A stretch of 64,000 nt of DNA from Nannobrachium achirus (Eukaryota; Chordata; Actinopteri; Myctophiformes; Myctophidae): the NCBI GenBank assembly GCA_963921795.1, contig OY997647.1, forward strand, positions 61,509,857 to 61,573,856, given 5' to 3'. Shown piece after piece: positions 1-30,692 of the stretch. The notes beneath the pieces were generated by a model that was not told the origin of the DNA, did no database searches, and was given only the letters and a program-made list of their open reading frames with translations. Each line of letters starts with the position of its first letter. The stretch's first letter is position 1. The position numbers were made by a program, and so were the translations under genes.

Positions 1-175
1 AAAAAAAGTATAGAGGGCTTAATTGGTTAAGAAAATGTCTCGGTTTCTTTTTTTAATGTATTATTTTTTTCCAAATGGAACCCTGCCGTCACTCTCTGTT
101 TACAGTGTGCCATCATTTCAATGTAGTCAGGGAATTTTAATAAATTGAATTAAAATGATTTTTAATTAATAAAAA

Positions 176-7365: not shown

Positions 7366-7720
7366 TCTCTCCCCCACCCCGTCCCCTGGTGCGTTCTATT
7401 TTACCCTCTCTCTCCCCCCCCCCCCCTCTGGTTTATCTCTCCTCCGCCGTCAAACATCATCTCCATCCCTCTCTGTCTCTCTATCATCCCCTCCTCGCTA
7501 TCTCTCGACCCCCTGTCCACACCTCCAACTCTCTCTTCCGTTTCCCCCCCTCTTTCCCTCTCCCTCTCGTACTTGTTTGCTTCGTGCCTCTCTCCTCTCT
7601 CTCTCTCCCTCCTGTTCTCCTCCCTCTGTACCTCTCCCCCGCTCTCGTGTGTCTCTCTCTCCCTCTCTCTCTCTCTCCCTCTCTCTCTCTCCCCCTCTCT
7701 CTCTCTCTCTCTCTCTCCAG
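7366..7720. repeat. pyrimidine (CT/C) low-complexity tract ending at the exon acceptor
   Basis: About 350 bases of CT-rich sequence that becomes (CT)n and runs into the CAG acceptor at 7718-7720. It acts as an extreme polypyrimidine tract for the first seen cyria exon. Open frames through it are low-complexity artefacts. Confidence 0.9.
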
Positions 7721-7842
7721 ATGCCCAGCCCACGGAGGCGGAGACGGCGGTATGGAACCAGGTCAGCGCCGTGCTGGAGGAGGCTCATGGGATCCTAGCA
7801 GAGCTGCAGTCCTATAACGGGGCGGGCCAAGAGATACGAGAA
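7721..7842 (+). CDS. cyria: cyria coding exon, residues ~24-64
   Basis: The acceptor AG is at 7719-7720, after ~350 bases of almost pure pyrimidine. The exon starts with the last two bases of a split codon (Asp or Asn, residue 24) and reads [18 protein letters not shown] through AGQEIRE. The donor GT is at 7843. In the family this is the first helical segment after the myristoylated N-terminus. It is the first exon seen in the window; the preceding ~23 residues are missing. Confidence 0.92.
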
Positions 7843-9035: not shown

Positions 9036-9329
9036 TTTTAGTTTTTCTTGTGAAAAGCACAATATGAACTTTAACGTTATATATTATATATATTCTGTAT
9101 ATATATGGTTAGACCACTTCAACTTTTTCCACATGATGGCAGTAGGCTACATCTTCAACACAGTTCAGGAGTGGCCACCGTCAACATTCAGGTTTGGTTT
9201 GGTATGTTGATACCAAAGCCATTACCAAAGTGAAACGTTGCTCTGAAGGGAGACAGGAGAGGGGACGTGTCGTGTGTGATATTTAGAATAAGTAACGTTT
9301 GTTTGTGTCCGTGTCTTTTTCCTCTGTAG

Positions 9330-9435
9330 GCCATCCAGAACCCAGGAGACCTGGCTCTACAGGAGAAAGCATGGAACGCAGTGTGCCCCCTGGTGGCCAA
9401 GCTCAAGCGCTTCTATGAATTCTCCCTAAGACTGG
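9330..9435 (+). CDS. cyria: cyria coding exon, residues 65-99 plus split codon 100
   Basis: It follows a CCTCTGTAG acceptor and encodes [18 protein letters not shown], then [17 protein letters not shown], with the first base of residue 100. The donor is G|GTGAGC at 9436. Phase fits exons on both sides (106 bases, 35 codons plus one base). The NAVCPLV and KRFYEFS segments are the CYRI-A form as I recall it. Confidence 0.92.
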
Positions 9436-18615: not shown

Positions 18616-18752
18616 AGAATGCCCTGCGCAGCCTGTTGGAGGCGCTGACGAGCCCGCCATACGCCCCCATGCAGCACCTTGAGAGAGAGCAGGCGCTGGC
18701 CAAACAGTTCGCCGAGATCCTCCATTTCACGCTCAGCTTCGACGAACTGAAG
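18616..18752 (+). CDS. cyria: cyria coding exon, residues 100-145
   Basis: The acceptor is TGTATGCAG at 18607-18615. The exon completes residue 100 (Glu) and encodes [19 protein letters not shown], then the family signature [18 protein letters not shown] and TLSFDELK. The donor GT is at 18753. The intron before it, 9436-18615, is over 9 kb and packed with MITEs. Confidence 0.93.
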
Positions 18753-19838: not shown

Positions 19839-19916
19839 ATGACAAACCCAGCCATTCAGAATGACTTCAGCTACTACAGGAGGACTATAAGTAGGAACAG
19901 GCTGAACAACCAGCAG
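19839..19916 (+). CDS. cyria: cyria coding exon, residues 146-171, Rac1-contact arginines
   Basis: It encodes [19 protein letters not shown] followed by NRLNNQQ. The Arg pair in YYRR is residues 159-160 here and corresponds to CYRI-B Arg160/Arg161, reported as essential for binding active Rac1 (family knowledge), so the Rac1 surface is retained. The acceptor at 19837-19838 sits directly after a C(>20)(CT)n run; the donor is GTAAGG at 19917. Exon length is 78 bases, phase 0 at both ends. Confidence 0.92.
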
Positions 19917-23351: not shown

Positions 23352-23468
23352 CTGGAAGCTGAGAATGAGGTGAACAACGAGATGGCCAATCGGATGTCTC
23401 TGTTCTACGCTGAAGCCACGCCCATGCTGAAGACTTTGAGTAACGCCACCACTAAATTTGTTTCAGAG
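23352..23468 (+). CDS. cyria: cyria coding exon, residues 172-210
   Basis: The acceptor TTCACAG ends at 23351. The exon encodes [18 protein letters not shown], then [21 protein letters not shown]; the donor GTAAAC starts at 23469. It is 39 codons, phase 0 at both ends. The first residues (LEAE) match the known variable spot between CYRI paralogues but keep the family length. Confidence 0.92.
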
Positions 23469-24279: not shown

Positions 24280-24359
24280 AATAAGACATTGCCCATAGAG
24301 GACACAACAGACTGTCTAAGCACCATGGCCTGTGTCTGCCGCGTCATGCTGGAGACTCC
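24280..24359 (+). CDS. cyria: cyria coding exon, residues 211-236 plus split codon 237
   Basis: The acceptor CTTTTCCAG ends at 24279, shortly after a (CT)n(CA)n microsatellite. It encodes [18 protein letters not shown] and VCRVMLET, then CC of a split Pro codon. The donor is CC|GTAAGT, GT at 24360-24361. The next exon must begin with G then GAA, which is exactly what each exon-7 array copy supplies. Confidence 0.92.
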
Positions 24360-25140: not shown

Positions 25141-25197
25141 AGGTGCAAGCTGCACTTTTTAAGCCTTTTCTTTTTTTAAATGGTACCTTTTGCGTGT

Positions 25198-26428
25198 GTC
25201 ACAGGGAATACCGCTGTAGGTTCACTAACACAGACACCATGCTGTTCTGTATGTGGCAGGGAATACCGCTGTAGGTTCACTAACACAGACACCATGCTGT
25301 TCTGTATGTCTGTCACAGGGAATACCGCTGTAGGTTCACTAACACAAGACACCATGCTGTTCTGTATGTCTGTCACAGGGAATACCGCTGTAGGTTCACT
25401 AACACAGACACCATGCTGTTCTGTATGTCTGTCACAGGGAATACCGCTGTAGGTTCACTAACACAGACACCATGCTGTTCTGTATGTCTGTCACAGGGAA
25501 TACCGCTGTAGGTTCACTAACACAGACACCATGCTGTTCTGTATGTCTGTCACAGGGAATACCGCTGTAGGTTCACTAACACAAGACACCATGCTGTTCT
25601 GTATGTCTGTCACAGGGAATACCGCTGTAGGTTCACCAACACAGACACCATGCTGTTCTGTATGTCACAGGGAATACCGCTGTAGGTTCACTAACACAGA
25701 CACCATGCTGTTCTGAATGTCACAGGGAATACCGCTGTAGGTTCACTAACACAGACACCATGCTGTTCTGTATGTCACAGGGAATACCGCTGTAGGTTCA
25801 CTAACACAGACACCATGCTGTTCTGAATGTCACAGGGAATACCGCTGTAGGTTCACTAACACAGACACCATGCTGTTCTGAATGTCACAGGGAATACCGC
25901 TGTAGGTTCACTAACACAGACACCATGCTGTTCTGTATGTCACAGGGAATACCGCTGTAGATTCACTAACACAGACACCATGCTGTTCTGTATGTCACAG
26001 GGAATACCGCTGTAGGTTCACTAACACAGACACCATGCTGTTCTGAATGTCACAGGGAATACCGCTGTAGGTTCACTAACACAGACACCATGCTGTTCTG
26101 TATGTCACAGGGAATACCGCTGTAGGTTCACTAACACAGACACCATGCTGTTCTGAATGTCACAGGGAATACCGCTGTAGGTTCACTAACACAGACACCA
26201 TGCTGTTCTGAATGTCACAGGGAATACCGCTGTAGGTTCACTAACACAGACACCATGCTGTTCTGTATGTCACAGGGAATACCGCTGTAGGTTCACTAAC
26301 ACAGACACCATGCTGTTCTGAATGTCACAGGGAATACCGCTGTAGGTTCACTAACACAGTGTTTTGTGTGTCTGTCACAGGGAATACCGCTGTAGGTTCA
26401 CTAACACAGACACCATGCTGTTCTGCAT
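25198..26428 (+). repeat. 22-copy tandem array of the cyria exon-7 splice acceptor and exon start
   Basis: Each unit holds GTCACAG, then GGAATACCGCTGTAGGTTC and on to CATGCTGTTCTG. The acceptor-to-exon junction recurs at 25205, 25260, 25319, 25379, 25438, 25497, 25556, 25616, then every 55 bases from 25671 to 26331, and finally 26381. Early units are 59-60 bases; later ones are 55, lacking a TCTG. Units 8-13 and 14-19 share the same order of TGTATG/TGAATG variants, so a six-unit (330-base) block was duplicated. The last unit runs into the full exon. The array lies entirely within intron 6 and exon 7. Confidence 0.95.
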
Positions 26429-26507
26429 GCGGGTGATGGTGGGCGTCATCATCCTCTACGACCACGTCCACCCTGTGGGGGCTTTCGCCAAGACCTCCAA
26501 AATCGAT
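26381..26507 (+). CDS. cyria: cyria coding exon, residues 237-279, at the end of an acceptor array
   Basis: It begins G then [15 protein letters not shown] and continues [27 protein letters not shown]; the donor GTAAGA starts at 26508. It is 127 bases and restores phase. The acceptor used here is the last of 22 copies of GTCACAG|GGAATACCGC. This is the only copy in which the exon continues beyond the first ~48 bases, so it is the one compatible with a full-length product. Cys241 stands where I recall Ser in mammalian CYRI (EYRSRF). Confidence 0.9.
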
Positions 26508-26519
26508 GTAAGAGCTGCA

Positions 26520-26564
26520 AACACACACACACACACACACACAGACGCACGCACGCACGCACGC

Positions 26565-26651
<87 letters not shown>
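26520..26651. repeat. (CA)n microsatellite after the exon-7 donor
   Basis: CA repeats with a CGCA block (26543-26562) start 12 bases after the donor at 26508. Confidence 0.95.
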
Positions 26652-26653
<2 letters not shown>

Positions 26654-27188: not shown

Positions 27189-27259
27189 ATGAAGGGCTGC
27201 ATCAAGGTGCTGAAAGAACAACCATCCAACAGTGTGGAGGGACTCCTCAACGCACTGAG
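27189..27259 (+). CDS. cyria: cyria coding exon, residues 280-302 plus split codon 303
   Basis: The acceptor CCCTGCAG ends at 27188. The exon encodes [23 protein letters not shown] and AG of a split Arg codon. The donor AG|GTAGGG at 27260 runs straight into a TG/CGTG microsatellite, so intronic sequence just past the 5' splice site is repetitive. Confidence 0.91.
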
Positions 27260-29027: not shown

Positions 29028-29091
29028 GTATACGACACGGCATCTAAACGATGACAGCACGTCCAAACAAATCAGGGCCCTCCTGCAATGA
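29028..29091 (+). CDS. cyria: cyria terminal coding exon, residues 303-323 and stop
   Basis: The acceptor TCTTCCAG ends at 29027. The exon completes Arg303 and encodes YTTRHLNDDSTSKQIRALLQ before TGA at 29089-29091. The C-terminus STSKQIRALLQ closely matches the CYRI-A ending as I recall it. Coding length in the window is 902 bases. Confidence 0.93.
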
Positions 29092-30524: not shown

Positions 30525-30692
30525 CGCTCTGGACCAGAGCGAGGACGCTCTGGACCAGAGCGAGGACGCTCTGGACCAGAGCGAGGGCGCTCTGGACCAG
30601 AGCGAGGACGCTCTGGACCAGAGCGAGGGCGCTCTGGACCAGAGCGAGGGCGCTCTGGTCCAGAGCGAGGGCGCTCTGGACCAGAGCGAGGT
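30525..30692 (+). repeat. 21-base minisatellite with a perfect palindrome in each unit
   Basis: About eight units of GAGGACGCTCTGGACCAGAGC (variants GAGGGCG). Each unit contains the near-complete palindrome CGCTCTGGaCCAGAGCG. The period is a multiple of three, so open frames run through it (ALDQSED on +, ALVQSAL on -), but they have no gene context. It lies in the probable cyria 3' UTR. Confidence 0.9.

Follow-up and report, generated by a model that had tools for sequence, protein, structure and literature searches.

We found that coding exon 8 of a cyria-like gene in the myctophid fish Nannobrachium achirus is preceded by a head-to-tail array of its own acceptor region, 22 copies in all including the real one, which, as judged from the DNA itself, is a real array of a known but little-studied kind called a mirage. 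The window, that is, the whole stretch of 64,000 nucleotides that was analysed, belongs to contig OY997647.1 (C10 below; 67.7 Mb in a genome of 1.66 Gb), and each unit of the array, 50–60 bases long and mostly 55, consists of the 3' end of an intron joined to about the first 45 bases of the coding exon. Tandem Repeats Finder (TRF) delineated 22.0 copies with a period of 55 and 95% matches (25197-26429), and a direct count recovered 22 CAG/GGAATACC junctions (the slash marks the splice border), with the first exon-side base running from 25205 in the first to 26381 in the last. The 21 spacings between these junctions are 55 bases in 14 cases, 59 in four, 60 in two and 50 in one. A 47-base core, with up to 3 mismatches allowed, matched 19 times against a mean of 0.00 in 100 shuffles, and the three copies that it missed all carry insertions or deletions. 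Together, the junction count, TRF and the comparison with shuffles bear out the original prediction of 22 tandem copies at 25198-26507. A DNA search of the genome returned the C10 array and five exon matches on C5 only. We consider it likely that the array is a neutral minisatellite that arose when similar flanking sequences slipped against each other, was spread by unequal exchange, and is tolerated since the nearest acceptor pairs with the donor of the exon.

The acceptor AG is kept at all 22 junctions, as CACAG in 21 of them and as GGCAG in copy 2. The exon part of the unit matches the real exon exactly over its first 45 bases and over 49 bases with one mismatch, which is close to the ~48 exon bases proposed at the outset. 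This part equals the real exon in 17 of the 22 copies (the real one included); of the variants, copies 3 and 7 share the same single inserted base, copies 8 and 14 differ by one substitution each, and copy 21 has an internal deletion. The first 21 copies fall into eight unit types. CTGT accounts for the extra length of copies 2-7, while TATG or AATG precedes the next acceptor in copies 8-20. The last copy runs on into the full conserved exon and its donor GTAAGA, as the original prediction had stated. A head-to-tail unit that contains the splice boundary and retains AG in every copy, with one copy being the authentic edge of an intact gene, is the structure by which mirages are recognized. Tandem arrays commonly cause assembly errors, and our observations come from a single assembly, in which a true copy number of one or few could have been inflated. 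However, this appears very improbable given the eight unit types among 21 units, the unique flanks, an extent of 1.2 kb that is within the reach of long reads, and the presence of similar arrays at other loci.

The gene bearing the array, which codes for a cytoskeletal regulator, is, by its predicted product, intact and under strong constraint. All nine coding exons in the window (2-10, Table 1) have regular splice sites, and the protein that they encode matches PF07159 with an e-value of 4.1e-139 and is identical at 299 of 299 residues to proteins annotated as FAM49A or FAM49A-like in several fishes, including Stegastes, Echeneis, Labrus and stickleback. The first exon, which begins with MGN and is followed by GTGAGA, sits ~0.8 kb upstream of the window (locus L040, positions 9120-9191, on C10). 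The array exon is therefore numbered 8, and the number 7 given to it originally holds only within the window. A second MGN-type exon was seen 3.4 kb further upstream (L040, 5683-5754), giving two alternative first coding exons. The nine spliced exons, the upstream MGN exon and the protein (exons 2-10) identical to that of other fishes rule out a pseudogene or a paralogous pseudo-locus, the latter being one of two possibilities that were to refute the original prediction.

Table 1. Positions, in window coordinates, of the array, its copies and the coding exons of the cyria-like gene
Feature	Position	Strand	Remarks
Tandem array, 22 copies (intron end and first ~45 exon bases)	25198..26429	+	TRF, junction count, core match
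Copy 1	25205..25259	+	Joined to unduplicated intron, with CCTTTTCTTTTTTT upstream
Copies 2-7	25260..25615	+	59/60-base units, ending in TATGTCTGTCACAG
Copies 8-20	25616..26330	+	55-base units, ending in TATGTCACAG or AATGTCACAG
Copy 21	26331..26380	+	50 bases, internal deletion; places CTAAC (26351-26355) and TGTTTTGTGTGTCTGTCACAG before the final acceptor
Copy 22, coding exon 8	26381..26507	+	Sole in-frame acceptor of the 22; donor GTAAGA
Coding exon 2	7721..7842	+	
Coding exon 3	9330..9435	+	
Coding exon 4	18616..18752	+	
Coding exon 5	19839..19916	+	
Coding exon 6	23352..23468	+	
Coding exon 7	24280..24359	+	Ends in ACTCC, then GTAAGT; open frame only with copy 22
Coding exon 9	27189..27259	+	
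Coding exon 10	29028..29091	+	Coding part to the stop codon (last base possibly just past the stop)

The gene was first called cyria, a name that belongs to a different gene on C16. In a homologue search with the protein of the window gene, the best 120 of 1,763 matches were listed and aligned. Among the listed proteins that were compared, the nearest to the C16 gene are CYRIA proteins from birds and mammals (85.7% with P0099), whereas the C21 gene comes nearest to cyrib from fishes (93.0% with P0164, a protein without a name, and 91.4% with P0174, member Bb). The C5 copies grouped with fish fam49ba; a composite cyriba protein found its top match in Lota lota (81%, best 120 of 1,669), and none of those 120 closely matched the genome's own C5 copies. 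From the 299-residue identity and the matches of the C16, C21 and C5 genes to CYRIA, cyrib and fam49ba, the window gene is therefore assigned as cyria-like (fam49a-like). None of the insertions at the array junction in the predicted proteins of other species is repeat-like among the 120 aligned; the same alignment contains a 21-residue insertion at this point in a Synaphobranchus protein (P0028) and five proteins shortened or altered there (P0079, P0080, P0084, P0085 and P0089).

We then compared the splice signals of the copies, using rough matrices of human splice-site frequencies. The 22 array acceptors score 7.3-9.5 bits, and the nine acceptors of the gene (copy 22 among them) 3.3-13.6. 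Thus the claim that the acceptors are nearly identical stands in regard to both their AG and their scores, as does the claim that the amplified segment comprises a functional acceptor and a portion of coding exon. The motif CTAAC, presumably a candidate branch site, is present in 21 of the 22 copies and lies 26-36 bases ahead of 20 of the 22 acceptors. When exon 7 is spliced in silico to the acceptors one by one, the frame stays open to the normal end with copy 22 only, and the other 21 meet an early stop; the predicted exon would measure 127 bases with copy 22 and 1,303 with copy 1. The best donor inside the unit reaches 3.3 bits, against 4.6-11.4 for the eight donors of the gene in the window. 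This, and sites just 50-60 bases apart, led us to reject micro-exons within the array. NAGNAG tandem acceptors also place competing acceptors at one exon; here the copies are 50-60 bases apart and each has its own upstream tract, and we agree with the original prediction that the array differs both from these and from ordinary intronic minisatellites.

Scanning the cyri genes exon by exon gave 64 exon matches, 11 of which have a same-strand copy nearby. One was excluded as an exon 7 match running into an intronic array (L012), and the remaining ten represent only five gene junctions, the window included, because the C5 loci are paralogues. At the donor of cyribb coding exon 8 (L036/L023, C21:41.89 Mb), 43-base units present 12 donor positions including the real one. 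This array starts and ends at GAC/GTGAGT, with the first and last positions reading GACGTGAGT and the ten inner ones GACATGAGT, so that GT has been lost at 10 of the 12. The acceptor of cyriba exon 2 on C5, fetched at two loci, lies in 68-base units with five acceptors in L042 and ten in L046, the real one included, and in both a TAG directly follows the copied exon part. The donor of cyriba exon 3 is repeated in 75-base units, with five copies in L043, three in L045 (two of them ~0.7 kb away) and one in L047. The acceptor of cyriba exon 8 lies in 84-base units, and its number varies from one to three among five paralogues of the one assembly (2, 3, 2, 1 and 1 in L009-L013); the junction is unduplicated in L012, and L013 has a further partial copy without an acceptor. 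These five places are at C5:3.53 Mb and C5:68.56-69.29 Mb, and the L013 copy has a stop codon in the exon. No array was detected in the same scan at the exons of cyria on C16.

Beyond the cyri genes, an exon of a receptor phosphatase (L060 and L069, C2:76,890,460-76,892,300, minus strand) has an acceptor array of 54-base units, with 24 exact CCCCAG/ACTCTGAACTC junctions, counting the real one, within 1,841 bases; as the array exceeds the fetched stretch, there are at least 24. The encoded protein is similar to receptor phosphatases in their second domain, and we take it to be of the PTPRK/M/T/U type with a coding start at TLNSV. This was the one exon with an array among 20 examined. The 20 come from the upper part of a list of 153 domain matches, are not a random sample, and were viewed with ~250 bases of flank, a second exon in L062 being left out. 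Since the edges of domain matches are not exon edges, and the L060 array was spotted through a self-match outside the domain match, others may have been missed.

We propose that the window array would have begun with slippage, or repair at microhomology, between similar sequences flanking the acceptor, which would have duplicated the acceptor along with the first 45-49 exon bases. Consistent with this, exon positions +41 to +49 (TTCTGCATG) and intron positions -17 to -9 before copy 1 (TTTTGCGTG) agree at seven of nine bases, and a second similarity nearby agrees at seven of eight (+48/-14). A slip between the first pair is expected to give a unit of 57 bases and between the second one of 61, and the units seen measure 55-60, except for copy 21 with 50. 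For cyriba, the unduplicated intron in L012 (AAGTGTTAATGATGG) has AGTGTT in common with the exon (ACAGTGTTGTTG) near the break. Both junctions would thus fit duplication at short similar sequences. As the unit variants suggest, unequal exchange or slippage may then have multiplied the units and kept them alike. Only the terminal copy remains attached to the complete exon with its donor. Exon definition would therefore pick copy 22, form the 127-base exon and remove copies 1-21 as intron, while messages from upstream copies contain premature stops and would undergo decay. Under exon definition the last acceptor is preferred, and under nonsense-mediated decay the transcripts from the other acceptors are wasted; because of these two rules, we expect both outcomes here. 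Purifying selection on the protein would purge changes harming copy 22, leaving the remaining copies to drift.

Several points weigh against this explanation. Firstly, the acceptor of copy 22 (9.5 bits) is hardly distinguished from many other copies (9.0), and its predicted use rests on the exon-definition argument rather than on its score. Secondly, the two similar matches leave the exact break point unfixed. Thirdly, a 6-unit duplication in copies 8-20, hinted at by eye, does not beat shuffles (p = 0.14), and we accordingly discarded a higher-order repeat as proof of unequal exchange. Finally, that three types of cyri gene have arrays at one and the same exon suggests something beyond chance, though in a small sample and with cyria on C16 having none.

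The last of these bears on whether the exon 8 sequence of cyri genes itself provokes duplication at its edges. Such a hotspot would explain why cyria-like and cyriba have arrays at the acceptor of this exon and cyribb at its donor, each with a different unit; however, with further arrays at the cyriba exon 2 acceptor, the cyriba exon 3 donor and the unrelated phosphatase, and none at exon 8 of the C16 gene, we regard it as improbable. A regulatory role may also be envisaged, in which some transcripts use the 21 upstream acceptors, meet an early stop and are degraded, with the copy number setting the protein dose through unproductive splicing. All 21 indeed retain AG, have comparable scores and lead to a stop, most with the branch-site-like CTAAC at the spacing given above, and stops likewise follow the three upstream cyriba acceptors and the phosphatase copies that were read. 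However, stops in such units are expected by chance, and the loss of GT from most of the cyribb donor array is the opposite of preserved signals, making this role unlikely in our assessment.

In keeping with a neutral minisatellite, repeats with a period of at least 20 bases make up 3.5% of the window; in 259 kb of loci surrounding the cyri genes, some of which overlap, their share is 6.1%. Arrays occur at five of ~70 junctions in the four cyri gene types and at one of ~40 in the phosphatase sample, whose edges are not exactly located. Because the two rates are alike, albeit in a small and non-random sample, a preference for exon edges need not be assumed: arrays would arise since the genome is rich in minisatellites, and exon edges may be struck about as often as other sequence. 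Exon-edge arrays are thus probably a widespread repeat oddity of this genome. More tentatively, and somewhat against the balance of likelihood, there may have been a lineage-wide burst, leaving a mirage array at about one junction in 20-40, some with more than 20 competing identical sites, with which exon definition copes, and array length may tune the loss of transcripts to unproductive splicing.

A reading of the array as a one-off and a new kind of element is contradicted by the four other cyri junctions, the phosphatase exon, the mirages of amphioxus and the boundary repeats of human genes. Amphioxus mirages are minisatellite-like repeats of intron-exon boundaries, found in Adh3 and globins; in BflGb6 the 3' end of an intron and the 5' part of an exon are duplicated, with six units in one haplotype and three in another, and Adh3 data and globin RT-PCR (reverse transcription-polymerase chain reaction) suggest that splicing proceeds normally despite the mirages (PMC3087553). 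A further report adds PGBD5 and names TnC (troponin C) (PMC3902484). Among these cases (Adh3, BflGb6, BflGb9, TnC and PGBD5), BflGb6 is built like the window array as far as it is described, whereas the fish arrays are from a vertebrate and reach 22 and at least 24 units. Genes in human segmental duplications likewise have minisatellites at exon-intron boundaries, the gene-modifying ones averaging 30 bp and 4 copies, which are said to give novel introns and alternative transcripts (PMC2812944). The fish array differs from these in its location in a conserved gene outside a recent duplication and in being most likely read as intron. Two fish papers provide the notothenioid antifreeze precedent and intronic minisatellites in sea bream genes (PMC8622921, PMC3045353). 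In the antifreeze glycoprotein, a 9-base unit became a coding repeat, unlike the 55-base cyria-like units, which contain stops and in their present form cannot be coding. Intron gain by tandem genomic duplication likewise duplicates exon sequence with splice signals; however, it calls for a usable donor within the duplicated unit, which was not found here (unit donors reach at most 3.3 bits), and the cyria-like array implies no new functional intron. No fish with mirage arrays was found in the literature searched, as judged by titles and the beginnings of abstracts, with most subscription papers outside reach. The novelty lies in the copy number and in the apparent abundance of such arrays in a vertebrate genome.

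Engineered minigenes have been used to study how duplicated splice sites compete. The arrays reported here offer a natural case, in which conserved exons are preceded by series of 22 and at least 24 near-identical acceptors, and bear on whether the first site met, the one nearest to the donor, or all are used, and on how this choice depends on distance. If common in this fish, they would also allow changes in introns and exon borders to be followed, and would caution that exon starts may be misplaced by gene prediction there.

As for the rest of the window, no other conserved exon was recognized by eye, the 117 open reading frames of at least 75 amino acids after 29200 having been viewed without a family search. 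About 1.4 kb beyond the coding end, eight copies of the 21-base unit CGCTCTGGACCAGAGCGAGGG (30525-30691) are open in several frames. Two long microsatellites adjoin splice sites of the gene: a CT repeat at 7588-7717 lies within 3 bases of the exon 2 acceptor, and an AC repeat at 26521-26652 within 13 bases of the exon 8 donor.
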